Source: Planctomycetales bacterium (GTDB lineage: Bacteria; Planctomycetota; Phycisphaerae; Sedimentisphaerales; Anaerohalosphaeraceae). From it: DNA of 48,475 bases. Positions 1 through 12,447 of the stretch are shown in pieces. The notes under the pieces were generated by a model. It made no database searches. It saw only the letters and a program-made list of their open reading frames with translations, and had not been told where the DNA came from. The position numbers and the translations under genes were made by a program. The stretch spans positions 1 through 48,475 of the forward strand of contig JAKEGM010000144.1 of the NCBI GenBank assembly GCA_022615575.1. Direction: 5' to 3'. Within the stretch, counting starts at the first letter, position 1. Each line of letters begins with the position of its first letter.

Positions 1-3000
1 AGTTTCATCATGTCGAGTTTTCCGGAGCCGAGATGCGGGATTTCGTCGATACCGATGATGTTTTCGCGTTTGGGGATATACAGTTTCGGCAGGTCGCTTT
101 GGGACAGCACCTTATACAGCGTATCGCCCTCAACCTTTTGCCTGTCGTACAGAATCACGATTTGCTCGCCTTTTTTCTCATCCGGCACACTGGTTACCGC
201 CAGCGCCGGCTCATGCAGATTCAGCCCCTGTATTGCCACCTCCTCGATGGTCATGTGGGGGACCATCTCGCCGCCGATCTTGCTGAACCGGCTGAGGCGG
301 TCGTGAATCGTGACAAATCCGTCCTCGTCCACGCTGACAATATCGCCGGTGTTGTACCAGCCGTCCTTGAGAACCTGCTCGGTTTTTTCGGGCAGTTTCA
401 GATAGCCCTTCATCACATTAGGCCCCTTCACATAGAGCAGGCCGGGCTGGCCGAGTTCGACAGGCCGGCCTGTTTCAACATCCAGCACCCTGACCGCCAG
501 TCCCGGAATGGTATGCCCCACCGTACCCTCTTTGGTGCCGACCTGACGTATTCCGCCCACCTGCACATCCGGTATATTGAATGCAATCAACGGGGAACAC
601 TCTGTCGCCCCGTACCCCTCACAGGGACGAACGCCGAACTTCTCTTCAAAGGCATCGATCAGTTTGGTCTTGAGCTTCTCCGCTCCGGCGACAATAAAGC
701 GAACGGTCTTGAAATCGTCCGGCCGGCAGCGGCGCAGGTAGTTGAGCAAAAATGTCGACGTGGCAAAAAACAGCGTTGCTTTTTCGTTTGCTATCGTTTC
801 GCCCACCAGTTTTCCATCGAGGGGATTGGGCACAAAGCAGGCAGGCACTCCTGCAATCAACGGCAGCCACAAGGTACACGTCAGGCCGAATGAATGAAAG
901 AACGGCAGAATGCCGCATAATTTATCGTCTTTGAAGACCTTAAACACCGTCAGGGCACACTCTATATCGCCCTGGATATTGTGATGGGTCAACTCCACCC
1001 CCTTGGGTCTGCCGGAACTGCCGGAAGAGAACAGAATGGCGGCGGTATCATCCGCACTGAAATTACGGCCGACCCGGACCAGTTTTTTACGCGGCCAGAA
1101 CCGCGCCTTAAAGAACGCTTTGCGTTTTTCCGCGTCCGAAATGCCCTCCATCAGGTCTTCCATGAAAAGAACTCCCGGCAGCGACTCCGCCTTCATCTCG
1201 AGTTTTTCCAAAAAGACCCGGCTGGTTAGAACGGCCGTGATCTGGGCGGTTTCAATCATATAGGCCCTGTCGCTTTCAGAGGCGGTGTAGGACATATTCA
1301 CCGCCGTCTTGTTCAGCAGGGCCGCCGCGTAATTGGCCAGCGCCCCGGCCACCGATGAGGGCAAAAAGATGCCGATGCTCTTCTGCCCCGCTGTTTGAGG
1401 TTCAATCTTGTCAGCCAGCGCAGCGGCGGCAATCAATGTTTTGCCGAATGTCAGCCGCTTGCCGGCGGCGTCTGAAATACAGGGTTTATGCCAGTGCTTG
1501 CGGGCGGCCTGAACCAGCGTTTGGCCCAAACTGTGCCGGCTGGATTTTTGGGCGTCGAAATAATCGACCGATAATTCTTCAATCGCCCAGCGAATGTCAC
1601 GACGGGATGAATTCGACGGCAGCGGCTTGCCGAAATGCACGCTGACCGGGCACGGCAGCCGCTGGGGCCAGGCGCTCATCAGATCGCCGTGATAGTGGCT
1701 CAGAATGCTGCCCCACAAACCGCCCAGATACGCCGGGATAATCGGGTAATCCGTTCCCCTGATGATCTTCTCAAAACCCGCATGAAATTTGCCCAGCATT
1801 CCGGTGCGGGTCAGCGCCCCTTCGGCAAAAACACAGACGAGGTATCCCTCATCCAGCGCCCGCCGGGCCTCGTTGAGGGCATTGATAATTTGTTTTGGCT
1901 CGGTGTGGCAGATGGGAATCATCCGTCCCAGCCGAAAGACCCACCCCATCCACGGATTTTTGTAAATGGACTTATCCATCACAAACCGAATCCGCCGCTG
2001 CTGCGTGGCCATCAGCACCACCGCATCCGCCCATGAGACATGGTTGGACACAATCAGAGCCGGTCCTTCGATTGGGATATTTTCTTCGCCCTCGACCTTG
2101 ATTCGATAGACCAGCCGGGTAATCAGCACGACAATCAGCCGCACCAGAAAATCCGGCAGAATCATCACCGTCCCGACAGCCAATGTCAGCGTCAGCAGTC
2201 CCCACACCAAAAACATCCATCGTGACGACACACCCATATTTCCGCAGACAATCTTTACCAGCAATGCCGCCAGAAGGACTCCAATCCACCCCAGAAAGCT
2301 GGAGGCCGCCAGCACCCGTCCCCGTATCTGCCGGGGCGCCTTCCACTGAATGAACGAATGAATCGGAACGATATACAGCCCGCAACTGATGCCCATCAGA
2401 ACAATCAGCATAAAAATCCCCCAGTGGGGATAACTGAGAATCGCCAGCGGAGCCGATGTTTCGACGGCGGAAACCGTCCCCAAGCCGATGGATGTAACGG
2501 CCATTCCAATGGCGCCCAGCGGCACAATGCCCATTTCCACCGTGCGACCGCTGAGCCGTCCGGCCAGATAGGAGCCAATGCCGATGCCGACTGCCGCAAG
2601 CACAAACAAAAAGCCGCTGTCGATATCGCTGTAACCGCAGACCTCCATGCCGTAAGGTATCAGGTTGATCTTGGCAAAGCCGCCAATCAGCATAAAGTAA
2701 GCGCTGGCCCAGATGGTCAGCATCAGTTCGCGGTCATGCCTGACCTGCCGCAGCGTGCTATAGACATCTTTGACAAACAGCAGGGAGGCCCTGGATTTTT
2801 CCCCCACCGGTTTTGTCTTGCCGATGCGCATGCTGGTCAACAGCCCGACGACGGCAATCGCGATACAGACCATGCTGGCCAGACCAAAATTGCGGCCCGT
2901 AATCTTGGCCAGGAACGGTCCGGCGGCAGCGCCCAGAACAATCGACAGATAGGTCATGCTCTCCAGAAAGCTGTTGGCCCTGGAAATCTGGTCTTTATGC

Positions 3001-3401
3001 ACCAGTTCCGGAATAATGCCGTATTTGCATGGGCCGAAAAAGGCGCTCTGGGCACACATCAAAAACAGGGCCGCATAAATCCCCATCGCAAAATTGAAGT
3101 AAAAAATCACACACCCCAGAACCATGATGACAAGTTCTGCAGCCTTGGCTATCACAATGACGGCCTGTTTGCTGAACCGGTCGGCCAGCGTACCGGCAAA
3201 CGGCGTGAACATCAGAAACGGCACCACAAAGATAATGGCCGCAATGGCGTTGATGTCCGCTTTTTTGTCCGCTCCCAGCAGGCCGATTAAAAAGAATATC
3301 ATCAGACCCTGAAACACATTGTCGTTGAGGGCGCCCAAAAACTGCGTGGCGTTGTGCCAGTCAAACGACCGGCTCATCTTCATGGAATGGTCCGTACCCA
3401 C
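1..3401 (-). CDS. LplT-PlsC-Aas triple fusion: MFS lysophospholipid flippase, acyltransferase and acyl-ACP synthetase (3' end outside window)
   Basis: This open frame runs off the left edge, so only about 1133 codons are visible. Residues 1-430 are a multi-helix MFS transporter opening with FLGALNDNVFQ, the LplT-type start. A PlsC acyltransferase follows: NHVSWAD (HX4D) near residue 452 and FAEGALTRTG near 524. The C-terminal third is an AMP-binding enzyme with P-loop SSGSSGRPKG near 790, GYGATECSP, YNTGD and, at the window edge, GSGKLD carrying the expected catalytic lysine, so probably only a few dozen residues are missing. In E. coli LplT imports lysophospholipids and Aas re-acylates them; here all three activities are on one chain, which suggests membrane phospholipid repair. 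GTG at 3401 is preferred because GGGAGG lies 6 bases upstream; ATG at 3383 is the alternative. The family assignment is firm, the substrate is inferred. Confidence 0.9.
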   Translation of the reverse strand, partial: MGTDHSMKMSRSFDWHNATQFLGALNDNVFQGLMIFFLIGLLGADKKADINAIAAIIFVVPFLMFTPFAGTLADRFSKQAVIVIAKAAELVIMVLGCVIFYFNFAMGIYAALFLMCAQSAFFGPCKYGIIPELVHKDQISRANSFLESMTYLSIVLGAAAGPFLAKITGRNFGLASMVCIAIAVVGLLTSMRIGKTKPVGEKSRASLLFVKDVYSTLRQVRHDRELMLTIWASAYFMLIGGFAKINLIPYGMEVCGYSDIDSGFLFVLAAVGIGIGSYLAGRLSGRTVEMGIVPLGAIGMAVTSIGLGTVSAVETSAPLAILSYPHWGIFMLIVLMGISCGLYIVPIHSFIQWKAPRQIRGRVLAASSFLGWIGVLLAALLVKIVCGNMGVSSRWMFLVWGLLTLTLAVGTVMILPDFLVRLIVVLITRLVYRIKVEGEENIPIEGPALIVSNHVSWADAVVLMATQQRRIRFVMDKSIYKNPWMGWVFRLGRMIPICHTEPKQIINALNEARRALDEGYLVCVFAEGALTRTGMLGKFHAGFEKIIRGTDYPIIPAYLGGLWGSILSHYHGDLMSAWPQRLPCPVSVHFGKPLPSNSSRRDIRWAIEELSVDYFDAQKSSRHSLGQTLVQAARKHWHKPCISDAAGKRLTFGKTLIAAAALADKIEPQTAGQKSIGIFLPSSVAGALANYAAALLNKTAVNMSYTASESDRAYMIETAQITAVLTSRVFLEKLEMKAESLPGVLFMEDLMEGISDAEKRKAFFKARFWPRKKLVRVGRNFSADDTAAILFSSGSSGRPKGVELTHHNIQGDIECALTVFKVFKDDKLCGILPFFHSFGLTCTLWLPLIAGVPACFVPNPLDGKLVGETIANEKATLFFATSTFLLNYLRRCRPDDFKTVRFIVAGAEKLKTKLIDAFEEKFGVRPCEGYGATECSPLIAFNIPDVQVGGIRQVGTKEGTVGHTIPGLAVRVLDVETGRPVELGQPGLLYVKGPNVMKGYLKLPEKTEQVLKDGWYNTGDIVSVDEDGFVTIHDRLSRFSKIGGEMVPHMTIEEVAIQGLNLHEPALAVTSVPDEKKGEQIVILYDRQKVEGDTLYKVLSQSDLPKLYIPKRENIIGIDEIPHLGSGKLDMMK

Positions 3402-3451
3402 TGTTCGCCTCCCTGACTTTTGAAATCATCGGTTTTCTACTGACCCTGTTA

Positions 3452-3483
3452 TTTTAGACGGGATGAACAGGATTTACAGGATA
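3452..3483. repeat. Degenerate intergenic repeat, GACGGGAT-AACAGGATTTACAGGAT family
   Basis: The spacer between the triple fusion and the next gene carries a stretch built from TTTTAGACGGGAT followed by AACAGGATTTACAGGAT. The same 13-base opening recurs at about 47128-47140, followed there by TACAGGATTTT. Two distant copies of a low-information phrase in non-coding DNA mark a dispersed repeat family. No gene is visible in this 126-base spacer. Confidence 0.6.
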
Positions 3484-3527
3484 TAATTACAAAAAATCTC
3501 GGTTATCCGATTCCTCCCGCCAAACAT

Positions 3528-4610
3528 CTATTCCGCCTTTTGGCTGCCGCAGTGTTCACAGTACGGCAGAAGTGCGTGGCGGATGCCGCCGCACTGGCCG
3601 CATTTGTCATATAAATTCGTGCCGCAGGACGGACAGCTATACGGTCCCTGCCGTGCCGCATCAACCGATTGGCCGGCCAGAACCTGCGCTTTTTTATGCA
3701 GCCCGCCGATATACCGCAGCGGCCCCGTGCGGATGGGTTTGCTGCAGACCGGGCAGATGCACTTGTCGTAATGCTGCTGATACTGCTTGATGAGCAAATC
3801 CTTTTTCGGCGCGACAATCATCCGAATCAGATAAATCAGAATTCTCACCACGATCGCGGTAACCACCACCCACGCGATATACTTAAAATACCTGCTGGGG
3901 AAATATTCGTGGGCTACCAGCGCAATCTTAACAAATGCCGCCAGGAACGCCGCCCATACCAGCGGCCAGTAAGCCCCCGTACGGAACTTCATGAATAAAT
4001 ACGACACAACCAGAAACACCGGCACCAGAAACGATAATTTGAGAACGGCAACCCTGAACCGGTATTGTTCCAACAGTTTTCTTTCCTTGACACGCGCATC
4101 GTCTTCCAGTTTCTTTGTCGTTTCTGAAATGGCTGACAGGGCATCATCTTTTTGCTGACGCTGTTTGACCAGTTCCGAAATTTCCAAGATGTACTGCTGA
4201 TTCTGCTTTTGGTTTTCCAGAAACCACGTCTGGCTGTCCTGCAGGGTCTTGACGCTTTCAGCAGGAAACTCCTGTCCCTTTTCAATGTATTGCTTCTGAA
4301 TCGAAAGCAGTTGATTCATCGTGGTTTGGAGACTGTTGGTGCTGCTGTTCAACTCCCGCTGCTGTTCCCGGAGCGTATCGATCCGACGGTTCAGACCAGC
4401 AACATCTTTCTGCAACTGGTCACTCTCATCATCTATCTGCTGAGAAACAAATTCACGGCGAACGCTCAGCCAGTCCGGCTGTTTCATTGTGCCGATGTCG
4501 CCCTCAATGAAACTCAAGAGCCAGAAAAACAGCACGCCCAGAACAACCCCCAGCGCCGCAATAAAAAACCGCACACCCCACGACCCTTTTGCTTTTTGTT
4601 TTGTTTCCAT
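3528..4610 (-). CDS. Membrane protein with long coiled coil and C-terminal zinc ribbons, function unknown
   Basis: 360 residues. One N-terminal membrane helix (about 13-35) is followed by a hydrophilic, Gln/Glu/Lys-rich region with coiled-coil character (50-185). Three further hydrophobic segments follow (about 188-207, 213-233, 243-264). The C-terminus has four cysteine pairs: C286/C289, C326/C329, C337/C340 and C351/C354, in CPVC, CPSC, CGQC and CEHC contexts, i.e. two zinc-ribbon units. If the helices are placed correctly, the coiled coil lies on one side of the membrane and the zinc ribbons in the cytoplasm. I do not recognise the family. Start: ATG at 4610 with AAAGG upstream. It shares its strand with the hydrolase gene upstream, but the 134-base repeat-rich gap means co-transcription is uncertain. 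Confidence 0.8.
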   Translation of the reverse strand: METKQKAKGSWGVRFFIAALGVVLGVLFFWLLSFIEGDIGTMKQPDWLSVRREFVSQQIDDESDQLQKDVAGLNRRIDTLREQQRELNSSTNSLQTTMNQLLSIQKQYIEKGQEFPAESVKTLQDSQTWFLENQKQNQQYILEISELVKQRQQKDDALSAISETTKKLEDDARVKERKLLEQYRFRVAVLKLSFLVPVFLVVSYLFMKFRTGAYWPLVWAAFLAAFVKIALVAHEYFPSRYFKYIAWVVVTAIVVRILIYLIRMIVAPKKDLLIKQYQQHYDKCICPVCSKPIRTGPLRYIGGLHKKAQVLAGQSVDAARQGPYSCPSCGTNLYDKCGQCGGIRHALLPYCEHCGSQKAE

Positions 4611-4629
4611 AATTTACCTTTCTTTTTTA

Positions 4630-4770
4630 TCCACAGATTTTATTTTCAATTTTCGATTTTCAAATTTGAAAATTGCAGTTTGAAAATCCCACACTCCGTG
4701 TTCCCTGTATTCCCACATTCGTATATTCCTGTATTCCTGGGTTCTTATGTTCCTAAGTTCTTATGTTCTT
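4630..4770. repeat. AT-rich degenerate short-repeat spacer overlapping the end of the hydrolase gene
   Basis: On the plus strand the spacer has TTTTCAATTTTCGATTTTC phrases near 4645-4665, then loosely tandem 9-11-base units such as GTATTCCTG, TTATGTTCC and TTATGTTCTT from about 4700 to 4770. The tandem units run into the hydrolase gene and encode its last residues and stop codon (EHKNLGT). Confidence 0.65.
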
Positions 4771-5728
4771 GCAGAAAACTCCCTACACTTTCCAACGCCC
4801 GCCGTTTATATTCCATTGCCTCATTGAAGAGTTCATGGTTGGCACCGGGTATGAGTTCGATGCGGACGTTTGGGAATTTCCGGCGGATCAGCCCCAAGTT
4901 GTATTTCCAGTCCACGGTGCCGTCTTTGTCGCCCTGCAGGACCAGAATCTCCCCCTCACAGGAAGGCATTGCTTCGATTTTGTCGTTCCAGTCAAACAGG
5001 GCCTTGACCCACTTGAGCGAAAGGTATTTGGCGTGCAGGCAGTCCTGTGTTTTGTTGAAAATCAGAAACTCCTTATCCGAGGAATTTTTGCGATGGAAAC
5101 GGGCGATCTTATCGGTGAATTGCTTATAAACCCTGTACGTTCCCTTGGACTGCTCATAGGCCGTCCAGTGAAGCAACGGGGCAGCCAGGACGATTTTTTC
5201 AATATCTCCGACGATGTTTTCCAGCATCATCTCAATCAGAATCGCCGCGCCGGTACTGAAACCAACAGCGTAATACGGCCCCTCAAGATGCCTGTGAACC
5301 AGCCGCATAAAATCCTGCGTCGTCTGAATATACTGATCGAACGAATCGATGGCTGCCGTCTCTCCGGAAGAAAGGCCGTGGCCGGGCAGGTCATACACCG
5401 CCGCCGCAAAGCCGTTGTCCAGCAGACACCGAATCAGATGCCGGACTTGGCCGGTATGATTGAGATAGCCGTGCAACAGCACAACCGTCGCGGTATATCG
5501 GGAGGGTTTATACAGATGCGCCGCCAAGGTAAACCCCGCCGATTCAAACGAGCCGAAGCGATGTTCGGCCCCGCACCAATCGCCGTCTAAGCCATAATGG
5601 GAAAAATAATCCACCACCGCCGGCGGATACCCGGCCGGATCGACCTTCTCAATCGGCTCGATGGTCAGTTGGTCCCTCAACGTCGTTGGCTCCCGATTCA
5701 TCGTCTCTTGTTCCATTATTTGTACCAT
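4745..5728 (-). CDS. Alpha/beta hydrolase, serine aminopeptidase S33 / monoacylglycerol-lipase type
   Basis: 327 residues from the chosen start. The fold is clear: VVLLHGYLNH (oxyanion region, about 82-91), YDLPGHGLSSGE (112-123), nucleophile elbow GFSTG with Ser158, an acid in LQGDKDGTVD (Asp269 likely) and GANHE with His298. This matches lysophospholipase/monoglyceride-lipase-like hydrolases; the substrate cannot be read from sequence. No signal peptide is visible. The frame stays open upstream to a TTG at 5755, but GGAGG at 5733-5737 lies just before ATG 5728 (spacing 4, slightly short), so I start there; ATG 5716 is a weaker option. The last codons lie in the degenerate repeat tract downstream. 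It may belong to the same transcript as the Skp-like gene, whose stop is 65 bases upstream. Confidence 0.85.
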   Translation of the reverse strand: MVQIMEQETMNREPTTLRDQLTIEPIEKVDPAGYPPAVVDYFSHYGLDGDWCGAEHRFGSFESAGFTLAAHLYKPSRYTATVVLLHGYLNHTGQVRHLIRCLLDNGFAAAVYDLPGHGLSSGETAAIDSFDQYIQTTQDFMRLVHRHLEGPYYAVGFSTGAAILIEMMLENIVGDIEKIVLAAPLLHWTAYEQSKGTYRVYKQFTDKIARFHRKNSSDKEFLIFNKTQDCLHAKYLSLKWVKALFDWNDKIEAMPSCEGEILVLQGDKDGTVDWKYNLGLIRRKFPNVRIELIPGANHELFNEAMEYKRRALESVGSFLQEHKNLGT

Positions 5729-5793
5729 AACACCTCCAAAAACGCAACTATTCAATCTTTGCGTTTAAAAGCCCCTTCTGCCGACGGATTACT

Positions 5794-6354
5794 CTAAAAA
5801 TTCGGGTCTTCTCTTTCAAGACGCTCGATTTCTTCAGCACTGATGGGCTTGTGGTCCTTTAACTGGCCTATCCATTCATACGCCTTCTGACGCGGATTGA
5901 ATAACTTTGCCAGTTCCATCGTTACATCCACGACTTCCGCATCATCCGCCAGGTAATCGCATTCCCACTTGCTGACAATCACATCGACGCCGGCGGCTTT
6001 AGCAACTTCCGGAATCTTATCTTTGACCTTCTCCAGATATTCATGCATCGGTGCAGTCCCAAACCCTTGTAAATGCATTTTTGCCTGCTGTGCAGGAAAC
6101 CATGCTTCCAGTTCCTTAACCTTTTCAGCATTTCCATCTTTTTTCGCCTGTTCCAGGGCCGCCATCTTTCCTTTTAAAATCTTGTCCCAATGTTCGGAAT
6201 TGCCATACGCAATCGCGATGCCCCGGCTGTCATAGACACCTACCCGCAGCAGTTTCTTTTTTTCTGCCGCACTCACACGCTGAACCGAGTTGAACAGGGA
6301 TGCCGCGCCGAGCGACAACACAACCAATCCTAAAACCATCATTTTGCGTTTCAT
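5794..6354 (-). CDS. Small secreted protein, distantly OmpH/Skp-like
   Basis: 186 residues from ATG 6354 (AGG 5 bases upstream). An in-frame ATG at 6372 would add six residues and has a weaker site. The N-terminus MKRKMMVLGLVVLSLGAASL is a typical Sec signal, probably cleaved after a VSA or SAA site near residues 26-30. The mature part is charged and helical. Its end, with VDVIVSKWECDYLADDAEVVDVT then MELAKLFNP in outline, resembles the C-terminal strand-helix of OmpH/Skp periplasmic chaperones, where a VDxVVxK segment is followed by DVTxxVxxxLN. The similarity is weak and remembered, not computed. The start lies about 40 bases after the radical SAM stop, so the two are probably one operon. 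Confidence 0.75.
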   Translation of the reverse strand: MKRKMMVLGLVVLSLGAASLFNSVQRVSAAEKKKLLRVGVYDSRGIAIAYGNSEHWDKILKGKMAALEQAKKDGNAEKVKELEAWFPAQQAKMHLQGFGTAPMHEYLEKVKDKIPEVAKAAGVDVIVSKWECDYLADDAEVVDVTMELAKLFNPRQKAYEWIGQLKDHKPISAEEIERLEREDPNF

Positions 6355-6394
6355 TTCAACCTTTCCTTTCATTCTAATAATTATCCTTCATACG

Positions 6395-7783
6395 TTAACT
6401 TTCCAAATGCGCAACGAGCGATTTTTTGCAAATTGGAAATCGAAAATCGGCCATTGAAAGTCTCTTTCGGGCCGGGTTGTATCCTCTGATCCCGAACACA
6501 ACCGTCCTGCCGAAGTAGGCCCAGTTCAGGACAAACGGATAAATAAAATGCAACAGGCCTTTTGGAGTACAAAGCCAGCGGACGGCACGACGCACAATCC
6601 GCCATGGGGCATAATACTTTCGGATGACCCAGTCCGCTCCGGCCTGCAGTTGTTCCGGACACATGGACCTGGGTTCATAAACGACATGGCGGTAATCGTA
6701 ATGCTCATAATCCGCATCAATAATGCGGTCTTTCATTTCTTCATAAAGAATCGTTCCCGGCAGCGGCGTCAGAATTGAAACCTGAATGGCATCGATTCCG
6801 ATTTTTTCCAGCATCCTGAAGGTCGCTTCAAAAACGTTGGTTTTATCCTCATCAAAGCCGAAAATCACGCCGGACTCTACAAAAATCCCGTGCCTGTGGA
6901 TTGTGCCAACCGCTTTCCGGTACTTTTGGGGGGCGTTAAAACCTTTCTCCGATTCGGCCAGATTGTGCACATTAAACGTCTCCAGTCCGATGAACAACCC
7001 CACGCAGCCGGCTTTGGCCAATGCGGTCAAGAGCTGCTCATCCTCGGCAATCTCAATGGAGGCCTGGGTAATCCAGTGTTTCTTTAACGGGATTAACTTT
7101 TCGAGCAGAGTCAATGCATAGTCCCGGTTCTGGGTCAGGTTATCATCAACAAACATAAAGAATTTCGAGCCGAAAGAGCCGATCTCGCCAACGACCTCAT
7201 CGACCGGACGGGTGTAATGATGGGCTTTGTAAACGGCGCTGATGGAGCAGAATCGGCACTTGTTTTTGCAGCCCATCGTTGCATAGGTTGCGTTGTGCGT
7301 CGAATACTTCTCCGAATGAATCATCTCTCTGGGCAGTGCTGCAGGAACCGCACCAGCAGCGTTGCCGTAATAGATTCGCTCCAGTCGCCCGCGGCGAACA
7401 TCTTCACACAGGCGAGGCCAGGCCTCGAAGGCAGGCCCAACGACGACCGCGTCTGCGTGCTTCAACGCCGCCTGCGGATTTAAACTTGGAAAAAATCCGC
7501 CCAGCACAACGGGAATATGCTTCTCCTTAAACAAAGCGCACAGCTCAAATGCCCGCGGGGCCGTAGCAGTCATGCAGGTAATACCCACCAGGTCAAAACG
7601 CTCGTTGAGCGGCACATCCTCAATCTGCTCATCTACCAGCCGAATTTCTGCATCCGCCGGTGATAATTTTGCTACCGTTAACAGCGACAGCATTGAAAAG
7701 CGAAAGGTCTTGCCGTTAAACAGCTTCCGGCAAGCGATTTTTCGCCAGTTCCCCGAGGCGGGTGATATCAGCAATATCTTCAT
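6395..7783 (-). CDS. B12-binding-type radical SAM protein
   Basis: 462 residues from ATG 7783, preferred over ATG 7804 because AGAAGG lies 8 bases upstream. Residues 1-135 form a Rossmann-like cobalamin-binding-type domain (MKILLISP, IRLVDE, DLVGITCMTATAPRA, IPVVLGG). I do not see a DxHxxG motif, as is common for this radical SAM class. The radical SAM core has C172-x3-C176-x2-C179 (GCKNKCRFC), FVDDN, GLFIGLET and SGVIFGFDED, and PLPGTILYEEM near the end of the barrel. Members do methylations, ring rearrangements and other difficult C-C chemistry; the substrate is unknown here. It starts 17 bases after the peptide gene and is followed by the Skp-like secreted protein. The final residues (RLSMADFRFPICKK) are read from a repeat of the ATTTTCGATTTCCAATTTGC type, so the natural C-terminus may have been extended. 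Confidence 0.9.
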   Translation of the reverse strand: MKILLISPASGNWRKIACRKLFNGKTFRFSMLSLLTVAKLSPADAEIRLVDEQIEDVPLNERFDLVGITCMTATAPRAFELCALFKEKHIPVVLGGFFPSLNPQAALKHADAVVVGPAFEAWPRLCEDVRRGRLERIYYGNAAGAVPAALPREMIHSEKYSTHNATYATMGCKNKCRFCSISAVYKAHHYTRPVDEVVGEIGSFGSKFFMFVDDNLTQNRDYALTLLEKLIPLKKHWITQASIEIAEDEQLLTALAKAGCVGLFIGLETFNVHNLAESEKGFNAPQKYRKAVGTIHRHGIFVESGVIFGFDEDKTNVFEATFRMLEKIGIDAIQVSILTPLPGTILYEEMKDRIIDADYEHYDYRHVVYEPRSMCPEQLQAGADWVIRKYYAPWRIVRRAVRWLCTPKGLLHFIYPFVLNWAYFGRTVVFGIRGYNPARKRLSMADFRFPICKKSLVAHLES

Positions 7784-7800
7784 ATTCACGGCCTTCTTTC

Positions 7801-8006
7801 TCATATGATTTTTGAGTCCATCGTTTGATTTATAGCGGCATTATGGGTGCTTATAGCGACAGTATGGACATTGATGAGCATGTTTGAGGGGTTGCCAATG
7901 AGGATTTCAAATGCCGGGTCCCCAATACCTTCTTTCCCACGAAGAGAAGCAATATCATCAACGCTATTGCGATTCCCCGAGTTATGCTGTTTGTTTTCGA
8001 TTCCAT
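7801..8006 (-). CDS. Small membrane or secreted peptide gene split over two frames (candidate -1 frameshift)
   Basis: ATG 8006 has AAAGGAG 7 bases upstream. Frame A gives MESKTNSITR then a hydrophobic stretch GIAIALMILLLFVG, like a signal peptide or membrane anchor, and continues out of context to a TAA at 7851-7853 (51 residues). Frame B (-1) has no usable start but reads KEGIGDPAFEILIGNPSNM then LINVHTVAISTHNAAIN and stops at 7801-7803, 17 bases before the radical SAM start. Frame B looks like real protein, frame A after the hydrophobic part does not. The frames join at G GGA AAG (7932-7938), a canonical X XXY YYZ slippery heptamer, giving about 68 residues. A missing base or a decayed gene is an equal alternative. 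No function is known; the position suggests a partner or substrate of the radical SAM enzyme. Confidence 0.5.
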
Positions 8007-8057
8007 TTCATTTCTCCTTTCAAGGTCTTAAGTTTCAAATACATCCGTTTAACATAC

Positions 8058-8073
8058 AACAATCCCCGTGCCA
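8058..8073 (-). promoter_or_regulatory. Sigma-54 (-24/-12) promoter for the peptide/radical-SAM operon
   Basis: Read on the minus strand: C-TGGCACG-GGGA-TTGTT. The -24 element is a perfect TGGCACG, the spacing to -12 is exact, and the -12 element is TTGT instead of TTGC. It lies 53 bases upstream of the peptide start codon and faces away from a divergently transcribed sigma-54 activator, the context expected of its target. Confidence 0.7.
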
Positions 8074-8159
8074 GACACCGGAAGTAATTCTAACTGCTTA
8101 TTTTATAATATTTTATGTGTTTTACGGTGGATTCTTTGATACATTATTTTCTTTTTTTA

Positions 8160-8189
8160 TTGACATATTATGTACAGAGACGGTACATT
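8160..8189 (+). promoter_or_regulatory. Sigma-70-type promoter of the sigma-54 activator; transcript predicted near-leaderless
   Basis: TTGACA at 8160-8165, an 18-base spacer and TACATT at 8184-8189. The start codon preferred for the activator is at 8196, 7 bases past the -10 box, so the mRNA would begin at or very near the ATG, and no Shine-Dalgarno sequence is visible there. Confidence 0.55.
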
Positions 8190-8196
8190 CTATGTA
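8163..8196. promoter_or_regulatory. Tandem ACAT-N3-ATGT dyads, candidate enhancer/operator of the sigma-54 activator
   Basis: Two dyads, ACAT-ATT-ATGT (8163-8173) and TACAT-TCT-ATGTA (8184-8196), have their ACAT half-sites 22 bases apart, i.e. two helical turns. Together they also form ATGTAC-N7-GTACAT (8170-8188). They cover the activator's spacer, -10 box and start codon, and lie about 110-130 bases upstream of the divergent sigma-54 promoter, the usual place for an upstream activating sequence. Confidence 0.6.
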
Positions 8197-9668
8197 TGTC
8201 TAAAATTAAGCTTTCCAACCCGGACAGGACGTTCTTTCAACTGGTTGCCGACGCGACGTTCACCAATCCCTTCAGCGCCGAGCGTGCGGAAATCGACCGG
8301 CGGATCAGCGGGATCAGCGCACCCTCTGACCGCAAACAACAGGTTTCGTATGCTGTTGAAGTCGTCCGTGAACGGCTCGGAACACTGGACCTCCAGGGTC
8401 CCTGCCGTTTTCAGGATTTTGATGCCCGTGACACCCTGCTGATGCGGTACACTTTTCTATTCGAAGTTTATCACGCTTATGCCCCGGCCTTTGACGCCTT
8501 TATCCAGAAACAGCAAGCCGCAGCGTCACCGCTGAAAGTCCCGTTCGCCGCTGAAGCCATTCATGCCCTCATTCGACGCGGTTTTAACGAATCCGAGTCC
8601 GTGTTTTATTTTTCGATGTTTTATCAAATCCGGCGGGCGTTTTATTTTATTGACCGCGGCCTGGTAGGCAAAAGCGACTGCATGCGTAAACTGCGGATGG
8701 ACTTATGGAACAACATCTTCACCTGGGATATCCGCGACTATGAGCAGTACCTGTGGGACAAAATGGAGGATTTTTCGACGCTGCTGGAAGGACCAACCGG
8801 CAGCGGCAAAGGCGCGGCAGCCGCCGCGATTGGACGCAGCGGATATATCCCTTTCGACCCGGCCAAACAACAGTTTGAGGCCAGTTTCACCAGCACGTTT
8901 ATCCCCATAAACCTGTCGCAATTTGCCGAAACGCTGCTCGAATCGGAGCTTTTCGGGCATACCAAAGGGGCATTTACCGGCGCCGTCAGTGCTCACCAGG
9001 GCGTGCTGAGCTTATGCGGACGATATGGGTCAATTTTTCTCGATGAGATCGGCGAAATCAGCATCCCGGCTCAGGTCAAACTGCTGAAGGTTCTTGAGGA
9101 ACGCATGTTCAGCCCGGTCGGCAGCCACGAACAACTCCGTTTTGACGGCCGAGTAATCGCGGCAACCAACCAGCCCGTCCATCAGCTCCGAAGAGAAGGT
9201 AAATTCCGCGCCGACTTTTATTACCGGCTTTGCTCGGACTGCATTCAGGTGCCGCCGCTGTCCCAGCGCGTTGAGGAAAATCCGCAGGAATTGGCGGAAC
9301 TGGTCGAACATTTTACACAGCAGATCACCGGTCGAACCAATCCTGAACTGGTTGGGCGGATTGTTGATATCATCGAACATCGGCTGGGGCGCAGCTACCC
9401 CTGGCCGGGCAATGTAAGAGAACTGGCTCAATGCATCCGCCGGATTATATTGAAACGTCATTATGAGGGGCATGTCTCAATGGACGCAGCGGAGGAGCCC
9501 GATGCCCTGACGGCAGACATCAAAAGAGGTGCGCTGAGTGCTGACCAGGTACTGGATGCGTACTGCCGTATGCTGTACCAGCGACTGGGAACCTATGAGG
9601 AAACGGCACGAATTACAGGATTGGACAGGCGGACGGTCAAAAAACGAGTAAACGGAAAGACTTCCTAA
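8196..9668 (+). CDS. Sigma-54-dependent transcriptional activator with an unrecognised N-terminal domain
   Basis: 490 residues from ATG 8196 (MSKIKLSNPD). The frame is open 27 codons further upstream, but that stretch covers the promoter and is not protein-like. Residues 1-185 are an unfamiliar, probably helical domain without a receiver, PAS or GAF signature. The AAA+ core has Walker A GPTGSGKG (199-206), the sigma-54-contacting GAFTGA loop (259-264), Walker B GSIFLDEIGE (278-287), a sensor region AATNQP and the arginine-finger region RADFYYRL. YPWPGNVREL (401-410) closes the AAA+ part, and the C-terminus has a Fis-like helix-turn-helix, GTYEETARITGLDRRTVKKR (465-484). The presence of GAFTGA means it can open sigma-54 promoters; the nearest candidate is the divergent one at 8058-8073. 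The input signal is unknown. Confidence 0.92.
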   Translation: MSKIKLSNPDRTFFQLVADATFTNPFSAERAEIDRRISGISAPSDRKQQVSYAVEVVRERLGTLDLQGPCRFQDFDARDTLLMRYTFLFEVYHAYAPAFDAFIQKQQAAASPLKVPFAAEAIHALIRRGFNESESVFYFSMFYQIRRAFYFIDRGLVGKSDCMRKLRMDLWNNIFTWDIRDYEQYLWDKMEDFSTLLEGPTGSGKGAAAAAIGRSGYIPFDPAKQQFEASFTSTFIPINLSQFAETLLESELFGHTKGAFTGAVSAHQGVLSLCGRYGSIFLDEIGEISIPAQVKLLKVLEERMFSPVGSHEQLRFDGRVIAATNQPVHQLRREGKFRADFYYRLCSDCIQVPPLSQRVEENPQELAELVEHFTQQITGRTNPELVGRIVDIIEHRLGRSYPWPGNVRELAQCIRRIILKRHYEGHVSMDAAEEPDALTADIKRGALSADQVLDAYCRMLYQRLGTYEETARITGLDRRTVKKRVNGKTS

Positions 9669-9788
9669 CGACTGACGGATTTATGAACGGGCAGCAAAAT
9701 TTTCTCGAACTATTTTCATCGCAGCGTTCCCGAGAAAACCGATGAGTTTTCTCAAAAAGAATTCGTTTCTGTGGGCATTTTTTGCCGA

Positions 9789-9794
9789 TATAAT
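9789..9794 (+). promoter_or_regulatory. Possible -10 box for the ECF-sigma fusion gene
   Basis: A perfect TATAAT lies 77 bases before the ATG at 9871; a matching -35 is weak (TTTCTG, 9766-9771). The spacer 9669-9870 also holds a GAGAAAAC / GTTTTCTC dyad around 9731-9752 with no T tract on the plus strand. No gene is visible in the spacer. Confidence 0.35.
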
Positions 9795-9870
9795 CAAGAA
9801 CATGCGTCCCTTCAAAACCGGCCGGATGCAAAGACACCGTTTAAAACCTGTAAAACCGGAATCGCAGTAA

Positions 9871-12447
9871 ATGGAAACCTACTGGAACAAGAAGCGCATC
9901 GGTCAGTTGTTTTGTGCAGACAGCCAGACACTTGAAGAACTTCTGCTGCGCTTCGGCCCGGCTGTTTATACATGGCTCTATTACCATGTAGGGGCCGATC
10001 CTCAGACAGCGGCTGAGCTGACGGGGTTGGCATTCCGGCAGGCGCTGCTGAATATGCCCCATTTTGAATACCGGCATCAAACGCTGTTCCAGTGGATACG
10101 GAACCACACAAAACAGACACTCGCCGAGGGACTGGCCGGCCGGCCAATCCAGCCGCAGCGGCCATGGGCGTGGTCGAATCTGCCCCCGCAGGTGCTGCAT
10201 ACCCTTTCGTGCCTGCGATCAGAAGCAGTCCCCGAGTCGGTCGCGAGCAACCCATTTGTTCAGGAACTGGTGCAGGCCGCCCTTGCGGAACTGGACCCCG
10301 GCGACTGCGAATTGATGAGGTACCGTTATCATCATCTGGATATGCCGGAGCATATCGCTGAACAACTGGGCATCAGCATCGAAGAGGTGAACAGCCGTCT
10401 TTACCGCTGCCGCCATTCATTCCGCAGGGAATTTGTGCAACTTATCTGTTCGGTCAATCTCGGCTTCTCGGAATCCAGCGCCCCGGGCGGAATTGAGATA
10501 CTGGACGGCAATCTCGAAAAATTGCTCAGCGCAACAGAAATGCACCAGACCCCCACTCCAGCGCAACTTGAATTGATTCGCAGCCGGGTGCTCGAGGCGG
10601 CCGATGAGCTCGCCCGAAATCGGCCTGAACCGAAACCGCTTTACCGCTTTGCCGTAATTCTTTCCGGCGCCGCCCTTATTCTTGTCATTGGTATTATTGC
10701 AGCAATTTTCTATGGACCGGCAAGTCCGAAATCTGCCCCCGAACCGCCGATCGTCACAACCGCACCGCCAACCAATGAACCGGACAAGAAAACCGCCCAA
10801 CCCGCACCGCCGAAACAAAATGAAATCATGCAGATTTTCGAACTTGGCAGGGCGGGTCGCATAGATGCCCTCTTGGAAATTCTCAAATCCGGCCAGCTTG
10901 CGGAGCAGATTGCAGCCGTTCACTTCATCGGAAAACTTGCAGATGAATCCGTTATTGCCCTGCTGGAACAGGCCGAACTTCAGCGGTATCCTGACGGTCC
11001 CGACGACAACCCTTTTGCTCAGGCCATCGACGCAATTTTAAGCCGTTTTCCGGAGGCCGCGTCTCCTGCCGCACGGCCGGCACCGACCCCCGCCGCACCT
11101 GAACCCAACAAACCGACCCCAAAACCAGCCATACTGCGACCCGCTGCAACCGGCACAGTGACCGACTCATCGGGACAGCCCGTCGCCGGCGCTCACATTG
11201 AACTGCTGCCAAACCCGCTGTTTTCAGCAACTCAAATGCCAACGGCTATAGCCAACACACAGACAGACCCCAATGGACACTATCAACTTGTTACGCCCTA
11301 CGAAGGCGCCGTTTTCGTAACCTGCAAAGGAACCCCGAGTTTTACACGGGCGGCCTGGTGCGTCAAAGACACTGCCTGTGTAGTTAATTTCGGCGGCAAA
11401 CCGTCCGTCACCGGCGCCCTGACACAGCAGGACGCCCCCTTTGCCAACCAACCGCTGGTCTTGAGCGACACGCTGGACTGGACAAACGCTTCTTTCCGCG
11501 CAGAAACAACAACCAATGAACAGGGGAACTTCTCCGTCGCCGGTGTTCCGCCCGGAACGTATTATCTCCTGCACAGACAACCGGAACAAAAACTGTCTCG
11601 TCTGGCCGTGTTTGAGGTTCCTTCGCAAAGTGATTTTCATCTTTCGCTGGACATCCGGCCGGTCAGCATCACACTGAACTACCCGCTTGAACCCGGTCAG
11701 CCGGCGCCGGCCAAAGCCGTTTTGACATACGGCTCCGGCTTGCCCGAAGGACTTCTTCAGACGCCAGCGACAATCCAGGAGAAAGGACTTGTTCGGTTTG
11801 AAAGTGTCATCCCCGGGTCATACCTTCTGAACGTTCAGCTGGATACCGGCGTCTGGATTCAGCAGGAAATCGACGTTTCAACAAATCCGGTCGAACAGAT
11901 ATTAGTAAATCCCCCTTTACAGGAGACCGTTACGCTCTTTGGACGGCTGCTGAATCCGGCTCCCGCAAGTTTGTTTCTGGATAACGCCAATCGGCATATT
12001 CGCATTGACCTGACAGCCGGACAGGACGGTTCTTATGAACTTGCCTCGGTGCCAGCGGATATTTATGGTCTGGCCGCCTATTTCCATGGACAGCGCGTCG
12101 AGTTTGCGCAGATTGACTTGCAAAACCAGAGCGAAACGGCGTTTGACATTGATCCAAAAGAATTGATGAAGTCGCTTTGCCCGCTCTACGTCGTGGTTAC
12201 GGATGCCCGGGGCTTGGTTCTTTCAGGCGCCCAGGTCTGGTTGGCCGGAAATGAACATCTGATAGTTGCCCAATCCACCGGCCGAGGGACTTTTTTGGCC
12301 GCACCCGCAGGCAGTTCTACGCTTTCGGCGGCCTATCCGGGTTATCTTTCGTACGAACAAACATTGGTATTGAAGCCATCGGAACTTTCAGCCAAGCCCG
12401 ATTCCGCAAACACTATACACATCCGATTGGGAAATCCTGCCCCATGA
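9871..12447 (+). CDS. ECF-type sigma factor fused to a membrane anchor, HEAT-like helices and carboxypeptidase-regulatory beta-sandwiches
   Basis: 858 residues in one frame. Residues 25-85 resemble sigma region 2 (LLLRFGPAVYTWLYYHV, TLFQWIRNHTKQ) and 135-190 region 4 (LAELDPGDCELMRYRYHHLD, then EHIAEQLGISIEEVNSRLYR, a helix-turn-helix). A membrane helix follows at about 259-281 (AVILSGAALILVIGIIAAIF). Beyond it come a Pro-rich linker, HEAT-like helices (318-394), a second Pro/Ala-rich linker and, from 427, a carboxypeptidase-regulatory-like domain (GTVTDSSGQPVAGAHIELLP) followed by more beta-sandwich repeats with NEQGNFSVAGVPPGTYYLL character. The sigma part would be cytoplasmic and the sandwiches outside, as in a one-protein signal transducer. 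Planctomycetes are known for ECF sigma factors with such C-terminal extensions. No separate anti-sigma gene is adjacent. Release mechanism and regulon are unknown. Confidence 0.85.
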   Translation: METYWNKKRIGQLFCADSQTLEELLLRFGPAVYTWLYYHVGADPQTAAELTGLAFRQALLNMPHFEYRHQTLFQWIRNHTKQTLAEGLAGRPIQPQRPWAWSNLPPQVLHTLSCLRSEAVPESVASNPFVQELVQAALAELDPGDCELMRYRYHHLDMPEHIAEQLGISIEEVNSRLYRCRHSFRREFVQLICSVNLGFSESSAPGGIEILDGNLEKLLSATEMHQTPTPAQLELIRSRVLEAADELARNRPEPKPLYRFAVILSGAALILVIGIIAAIFYGPASPKSAPEPPIVTTAPPTNEPDKKTAQPAPPKQNEIMQIFELGRAGRIDALLEILKSGQLAEQIAAVHFIGKLADESVIALLEQAELQRYPDGPDDNPFAQAIDAILSRFPEAASPAARPAPTPAAPEPNKPTPKPAILRPAATGTVTDSSGQPVAGAHIELLPNPLFSATQMPTAIANTQTDPNGHYQLVTPYEGAVFVTCKGTPSFTRAAWCVKDTACVVNFGGKPSVTGALTQQDAPFANQPLVLSDTLDWTNASFRAETTTNEQGNFSVAGVPPGTYYLLHRQPEQKLSRLAVFEVPSQSDFHLSLDIRPVSITLNYPLEPGQPAPAKAVLTYGSGLPEGLLQTPATIQEKGLVRFESVIPGSYLLNVQLDTGVWIQQEIDVSTNPVEQILVNPPLQETVTLFGRLLNPAPASLFLDNANRHIRIDLTAGQDGSYELASVPADIYGLAAYFHGQRVEFAQIDLQNQSETAFDIDPKELMKSLCPLYVVVTDARGLVLSGAQVWLAGNEHLIVAQSTGRGTFLAAPAGSSTLSAAYPGYLSYEQTLVLKPSELSAKPDSANTIHIRLGNPAP

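Follow-up and report, generated by a model that had tools for sequence, protein, structure and literature searches.

The window analysed here is a whole contig of 48,475 nucleotides (G000:C102; GenBank contig JAKEGM010000144.1, assembly GCA_022615575.1) from the draft genome, 2.39 Mb in size and ~90% complete, of a Planctomycetales bacterium. It carries a gene for a sigma-54 activator (a bacterial enhancer-binding protein, bEBP) that faces, on the opposite strand, a predicted sigma-54 promoter followed by a small open reading frame (ORF) and a gene for a B12-type radical SAM enzyme (Table 1). An earlier note on this DNA had read these elements as a self-contained circuit in which the small peptide would be the substrate or partner of the enzyme. 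We found that the operon extends beyond position 5794 through three more genes, encoding a hydrolase, a zinc-ribbon protein and an acyltransferase fusion, to the contig end. Judged by its motifs and their spacing, the divergent unit of activator, enhancer and sigma-54 promoter is real and deeply conserved across several phyla.

Table 1. Features of the locus, listed from the activator gene outward along the divergent operon (SD, Shine-Dalgarno sequence; TM, transmembrane; ACP, acyl carrier protein).
Feature	Position	Strand	Basis and remarks
Sigma-54 activator (bEBP), 490 aa	8196..9668	+	AAA+ domain with GAFTGA, helix-turn-helix; profiles and orthologues
Dyad 2, ACATTCTATGT, putative distal enhancer, centre ~-143	8185..8195		ACAT-N3-ATGT; overlaps -10 (TACATT, 8184-8189) and abuts the activator start codon
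Dyad 1, ACATATTATGT, putative proximal enhancer, centre ~-121	8163..8173		ACAT-N3-ATGT; overlaps -35 (TTGACA, 8160-8165) of the activator promoter
Sigma-70-like activator promoter, TTGACA-N18-TACATT	8160..8189	+	Top-scoring promoter-like site (10 of 12) on both strands of positions 1-10000
-24/-12 (sigma-54) promoter, TGGCACGGGGATTGTT	8058..8073	-	Motif and conserved position; predicted start ~8048
Small ORF, 51 aa, one TM segment	7851..8006	-	Good SD; not conserved
Radical SAM enzyme with B12-binding domain and CxxxCxxC, 462 aa counted from the conserved MKILL	6395..7783	-	BchE/HpnJ/AprD4-type fold
Secreted protein, ~190 aa, weakly Skp/OmpH-like (family F5)	5794..6372	-	OmpH profile below cut-off
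Alpha/beta hydrolase, BipL-like phospholipase (family F1)	4745..5755	-	NF052543 232.4 bits, Hydrolase_4 2.7e-29; true start probably ~5700
Membrane protein (family F7) with zinc ribbons at its C terminus and a coiled coil	3528..4610	-	Profiles, relatives
LplT(MFS)-PlsC acyltransferase-acyl-ACP synthetase (Aas) fusion, incomplete at contig end	3..3401	-	NF006386 and three Pfam domains

The activator consists of an all-helical N-terminal domain (residues ~1-190), an AAA+ domain with the GAFTGA motif (~191-430) and a C-terminal helix-turn-helix (EETARITGLDRRTVKKR). Its identification as a sigma-54 activator in the earlier note is borne out by the Walker motifs, GAFTGA, the helix-turn-helix and a match to Sigma54_activat (PF00158, 2.9e-41, 141 bits), features by which bEBPs are recognized, and both GAFTGA and the ...LDRRTVKK motif are invariant or nearly so. 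Translation most likely starts at 8196, immediately 3' of the second dyad, with a start at 8115 disfavoured. Orthologues with 52-78% identity were found in 27 of 59 relatives surveyed, including eight of the nine sampled from the same genus. Scanning a genome collection with the N-terminal domain yielded 345 relatives; the best 80 of these derive by record name from planctomycetes, Desulfobacterota, Gammaproteobacteria, SAR324, Nitrospinaceae, Pedosphaera and Pontiellaceae.

The AAA+ sequence is closest to that of RtcR (NF038308, 186.6 bits; PADLOC RtcR_PspF2, 200.9). We rejected assignment to RtcR or another CARF regulator on the grounds that only the AAA+ part matches: the NF038308 score compares with a cut-off of 650 and its alignment begins only at residue 194, while PADLOC CARF models align from residue 191 at the earliest, so that the CARF domain of RtcR is left unmatched. 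The N-terminal domain is, moreover, predicted to be all-helical, unlike CARF. Nor is the protein a PspF, as TIGR02974 scores 149.1 bits against a cut-off of 443.55 and there is an extra domain of ~190 residues. That domain, unrecognised in the earlier note, still has no Pfam family over most members and no sequence relative in the PDB. In the structure model (mean predicted local distance difference test score, pLDDT, 60 overall) this part is all-helical with a pLDDT mostly of 65-90 to residue ~150, and a Foldseek search with the model, of which the helical N-terminal part alone is confident, returned nothing below 0.1.

We counted the promoter and dyads in those of the best 80 relatives with enough upstream sequence plus the window (29 planctomycete and 51 other-phylum loci), deriving expectations from dinucleotide shuffles and allowing up to two mismatches for the -24/-12 box and one for the dyad TRCATNNNATGYA. 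A -24/-12 box is not by itself rare, with 1.9 expected in the window at up to one mismatch; its position is conserved in relatives, at ~120-130 bp from the activator start on the divergent side in most orthologue loci. The earlier note had named absence of the box from most relatives as grounds against its reading, and we found the box in 28 of the 29 planctomycete loci (4.1 expected) and 37 of the 51 others (5.8 expected), counts that, like those for the dyad, are not of independent events since the sequences within each group are kin. The dyad is present in 25/29 planctomycete loci (1.8 expected) and 35/51 other loci (2.6 expected), where the expected numbers are optimistic because the motif was derived from sequences including some of those tested.

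In the window, the two dyads noted upstream of the promoter lie 22 bp apart and match without mismatch, against 0.15 matches expected at up to three mismatches. Across loci their centres fall mostly at -119 to -123 and -141 to -146 from the predicted start, and in a few at 107-110 and 129-132, about 11 bp, or one helical turn, nearer. At the level of sequence, the pair thus has the placement of bEBP upstream activating sequences, ~100-150 bp from a -24/-12 promoter. Within its own genome the exact double dyad occurs only here, the remaining matches all having three mismatches and being about as numerous as in a reversed control. As this spacing is kept across phyla, the exact pair is unique and rpoN is found in the window's own genome, the description "self-contained" fits the unit. 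Separately, five other exact TGGCACRNNNNTTGYW boxes are found in the genome (C17:955, C62:6212, C77:1717, C124:10396 and C139:22174; none in the reversed control), and these may mark a further, small set of sigma-54-controlled genes.

The activator's own sigma-70-like promoter has both of its hexamers covered by the dyads. The ATG lies 7 nt after the -10 hexamer and has no SD; because the start codon is this close, the layout suggests that the activator mRNA is probably leaderless. The arrangement of dyads, promoter and start is common to most planctomycete orthologues; L054 and L055 instead carry an SD in a longer leader. Since the dyads cover this promoter, binding to them should repress the activator, which points to autorepression. 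No Rfam match was found in positions 3000-10000 of the window.

The small gene between the promoter and the radical SAM gene exists as described, with its strong ribosome site, except that the distance between the two genes is not 17 bases: it is 46 from the first ATG of the enzyme's ORF (6395-7804, minus strand) and 67 from the start common to relatives (MKILL..., 7783). Its proposed role as substrate or partner of the enzyme did not survive comparison with relatives, in which co-conservation fails for the peptide while it holds for the box. In the sister genome G007, whose activator and radical SAM enzyme are 78% and 75% identical to those of the window, an unrelated 63-aa frame occupies the place of the small ORF; the promoter of L052, L059, L069, L070 and L072 leads straight into the radical SAM gene, with no small ORF; and in L056 and L064 the first gene encodes a VIT-VWA protein. 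By these comparisons the small ORF is not a conserved precursor.

The pattern expected of a ribosomally synthesized and post-translationally modified peptide (RiPP), a precursor conserved beside its radical SAM maturase, is therefore missing, and we rejected the small ORF as a RiPP precursor given its lack of conservation in the sister and its absence from at least five loci. A RiPP-like module, induced by the sigma-54 switch, in which the 51-aa peptide would be the substrate or partner of the B12 radical SAM enzyme, could draw on the strong SD and the location between promoter and enzyme, on small ORFs at the same place in L051, L063, L065 and L073, and on the protein methylase MgmA being among the enzyme's closest structures. 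We nonetheless regard it as very improbable, since at least five loci have the enzyme right after the promoter, the enzyme's Pfam matches comprise only radical SAM and B12-binding domains with no SPASM or RRE, and the neighbours are lipid genes. The small ORF at this place in G002 tells against it as well: its 31 residues align with the leader of the G008 VIT-VWA protein at a score of 82, where the highest of 249 background N-termini scores 41.

The window's small ORF likewise resembles the leader of the G005 VIT-VWA protein, at a score of 46 with the next background at 37; one background entry scores equally high (46), and we take it to be the same G005 protein left unfiltered. Because the ORFs of G002 and the window resemble VIT-VWA leaders and the sequence is not conserved, the small ORF is most simply explained as the vestigial leader of a lost VIT-VWA gene. 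A fast-evolving or lineage-specific small protein is less likely than such a leftover. In particular, a genuine small membrane protein that regulates, say, the activator or the acyltransferase complex would account for the good SD, the TM segment and the TM-containing small ORFs at the same place in several genomes; with no detectable conservation, absence from many loci and the likeness to VIT-VWA leaders in both the window and G002, we consider it improbable.

The B12-type radical SAM assignment is sound, with scores above the gathering scores for both PF04055 (47.7 vs 29.5) and PF02310 (38.1 vs 32.1) and with invariant cysteines C179, C183 and C186. BchE and HpnJ are the best-scoring families, both far below cut-off, and among structures AprD4 comes closest to the predicted model (pLDDT 73), with Z 21.4 and a root-mean-square deviation of 4.1 over 367, followed by CysS and MgmA. 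The enzyme is found at 43% identity or more in 13 genomes including the window's, in 12 of them inside the activator cluster and in G020 at a contig end. The tetraether synthase Tes was neither among the profile matches (E up to 1) nor among the fold matches listed, an absence that proves nothing. The fold does not settle the substrate; the context suggests that the enzyme probably acts on an acyl chain or other lipid.

The remaining genes of the operon, which would be co-transcribed, and the gene content of related clusters speak to the function of the switch. The secreted gene noted earlier exists, although its Skp label is weak (PF03938 17.6 bits vs a gathering score of 32.4). The hydrolase is a homologue but not an equivalog of BipL, scoring 232.4 against the NF052543 cut-off of 450. 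The fusion scores 1316.1 with NF006386, above the equivalog cut-off of 1221, and has the full architecture of MFS, acyltransferase and AMP-binding domains. Among the 20 loci with at least 5 kb of upstream sequence, the hydrolase is present in 14, the fusion in 12, the radical SAM gene in 12, the Skp-like gene in nine, BcrAD/HGD in eight and VIT-VWA in three, all of them minimum counts because several contigs end too early. Relatives insert PlsA/Ger-type ester-reductase genes, or VIT-VWA and rhombosortase, in the cluster; one (L059/L097) encodes a protein of 1452 aa in which two BcrAD_BadFG domains are combined with DUF2229 and HGD-D, as has been reported for the glycerol ester reductase Ger (PMC13274423). 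In Desulfobacterota, the activator family either faces ~3,200-aa ketoacyl-synthase megasynthases and has a YihG-type lysophosphatidic acid acyltransferase (LPAAT) gene after it, or faces VIT-VWA and rhombosortase. The common thread of the activator-linked genes, by their homologies, is membrane lipid and surface, not peptides.

Gene order, motifs, promoter-enhancer geometry, homologies and the non-conservation of the peptide are read directly from sequence, and the gene content of the operon and its relatives, lipid and surface genes as opposed to peptides, leads us to favour phospholipid remodelling as the output. It is reasonably probable, in our view, that this anaerobic-type planctomycete uses the locus as a sigma-54 switch that acts locally and is dedicated to remodelling its membrane phospholipids. 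Of the earlier suggestion of an inducible peptide-modification or envelope-stress module, the envelope is partly right and peptide modification is not supported. In our model, basal expression from its own sigma-70 promoter would supply the activator, whose helical N-terminal domain would sense a cue, probably membrane or lipid state. The activator would then oligomerise on the two dyads ~120-143 bp upstream; its AAA+ GAFTGA motor would open sigma-54 polymerase at the -24/-12 box, and its binding to the dyads should also repress its own promoter in a PspF-like manner. Of the products, the phospholipase-like hydrolase would release lysophospholipid, the LplT-PlsC-Aas fusion would flip and re-acylate it, and the radical SAM enzyme would probably act on an acyl chain or other lipid.

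Several points weigh against this interpretation. The BipL match of the hydrolase falls below its cut-off; the closest structural matches of the radical SAM enzyme (AprD4, MgmA and CysS) act on non-lipid substrates; and further promoters or terminators could lie within gaps of 126-134 bp in the operon. As DUF2229 (Ger/PlsA) has no match in the window's genome at ~90% completeness, nothing implies ether-lipid synthesis there. Finally, the theme may be wider than lipids and concern the envelope, because VIT-VWA/rhombosortase is the first gene in 13-14 loci. Taken further, this last point would make the unit a general envelope-stress switch responding to a damaged envelope, with a VIT-VWA surface protein and rhombosortase as ancestral targets that lipid genes joined later. 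VIT-VWA (TIGR03788-like) and rhombosortase (TIGR03902, above cut-off) are indeed the commonest first genes outside the Desulfobacula group, in several phyla, and LplT-PlsC genes often share clusters with them; yet the window and most nearer relatives lost or never had the pair and keep the hydrolase and acyltransferase, and we judge such a switch unlikely.

More tentatively, we propose that sigma-54 activators of this type form a family, hitherto undescribed and spread across phyla, that has a sensor domain of its own and an operator, TRCAT-N3-ATGYA, paired 22 bp apart at ~-120/-143. In anaerobic bacteria this family would be the dedicated regulator of acyl-chain remodelling in the membrane, and its reach would extend to ether- or membrane-spanning-lipid chemistry carried out by B12 radical SAM and PlsA/Ger-type enzymes.

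Comparison with characterized systems places the unit among known kinds. PspF controls pspABCDE, the sigma-54-dependent phage-shock circuit; it lacks an N-terminal sensor domain and acts on the genes for Psp proteins. The present locus shares with it a divergent bEBP gene, two enhancers between the genes that cover the activator's sigma-70 promoter, and a sigma-54 operon with a membrane role, and differs in the ~190-aa helical N-terminal domain and the lipid-enzyme targets. RtcR-rtcBA, a system for RNA repair, offers the closest AAA+ sequence and a divergent sigma-54 operon, whereas here CARF is unmatched, the score is far below cut-off and neither rtcB nor rtcA is among the annotated neighbours. 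The fusion corresponds to LplT-Aas lysophospholipid re-acylation (acyl-[ACP]--phospholipid O-acyltransferase, NF006386), but here it falls under a sigma-54 switch and has a phospholipase-like hydrolase and a radical SAM enzyme encoded alongside. VIT-VWA proteins with a dedicated sorting enzyme (TIGR03788; rhombosortase TIGR03902) occur in the clusters of L056, L064 and many Desulfobacterota, beside a sigma-54 bEBP and with TIGR03788 matched below cut-off, and are absent from the window. The radical SAM and Ger/PlsA-type genes of relatives' clusters recall the Mss/Ger pathway for membrane-spanning and ether lipids (PMC13274423, PMC11868695), and homologues of Mss and Ger have been reported in Phycisphaerae; in contrast, no Ger/PlsA-type gene was found in the window's genome.

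We found no prior literature on this circuit in our literature searches. What appears new in a regulatory unit of known kind is the operator definition and a sensor domain without a known family. It has been asked which conditions tune PlsA/Ger homologues (PMC13274423), and the locus offers a candidate regulator, binding site and promoter for switching on unusual membrane lipids (ether or spanning), conserved in planctomycetes, Desulfobacterota and other phyla. It also fits an older proposal in which the bacterial exterior is what sigma-54 chiefly controls (PMC3162934). The family is testable because one of the records that carry it belongs to a named strain, Desulfocicer vacuolatum DSM 3385.

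Some further observations concern individual groups of relatives. In Desulfobacula-type loci (L106, L120, L127, L132, L138, L142-L146, L149, L152, L156 and L157) the activator faces a ~3,200-aa ketoacyl-synthase/acyltransferase/ACP megasynthase, with a YihG-type LPAAT after the activator in most, which looks like a regulated polyketide-style fatty-acid pathway. VIT-VWA proteins are encoded in L082, L086, L094, L098, L100, L107, L111, L118, L119, L124 and L136, most beside rhombosortase and most with a GxGTG/GPVGP-TM-basic C-terminal tail; the two may form a dedicated sorting pair that sigma-54 controls in several phyla. L057/L084 (G021:C15) has two adjacent activator-family genes, with no sigma-54 box found, and is the only one of the 20 loci with none of the lipid genes upstream. 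Adjoining the activator in the window, positions 9871-12447 (plus strand) encode a sigma-70 region-4-like segment, below the Pfam cut-off, joined to carboxypeptidase-regulatory-like repeats, and this type of protein is kept beside the activator in L051 and L055.

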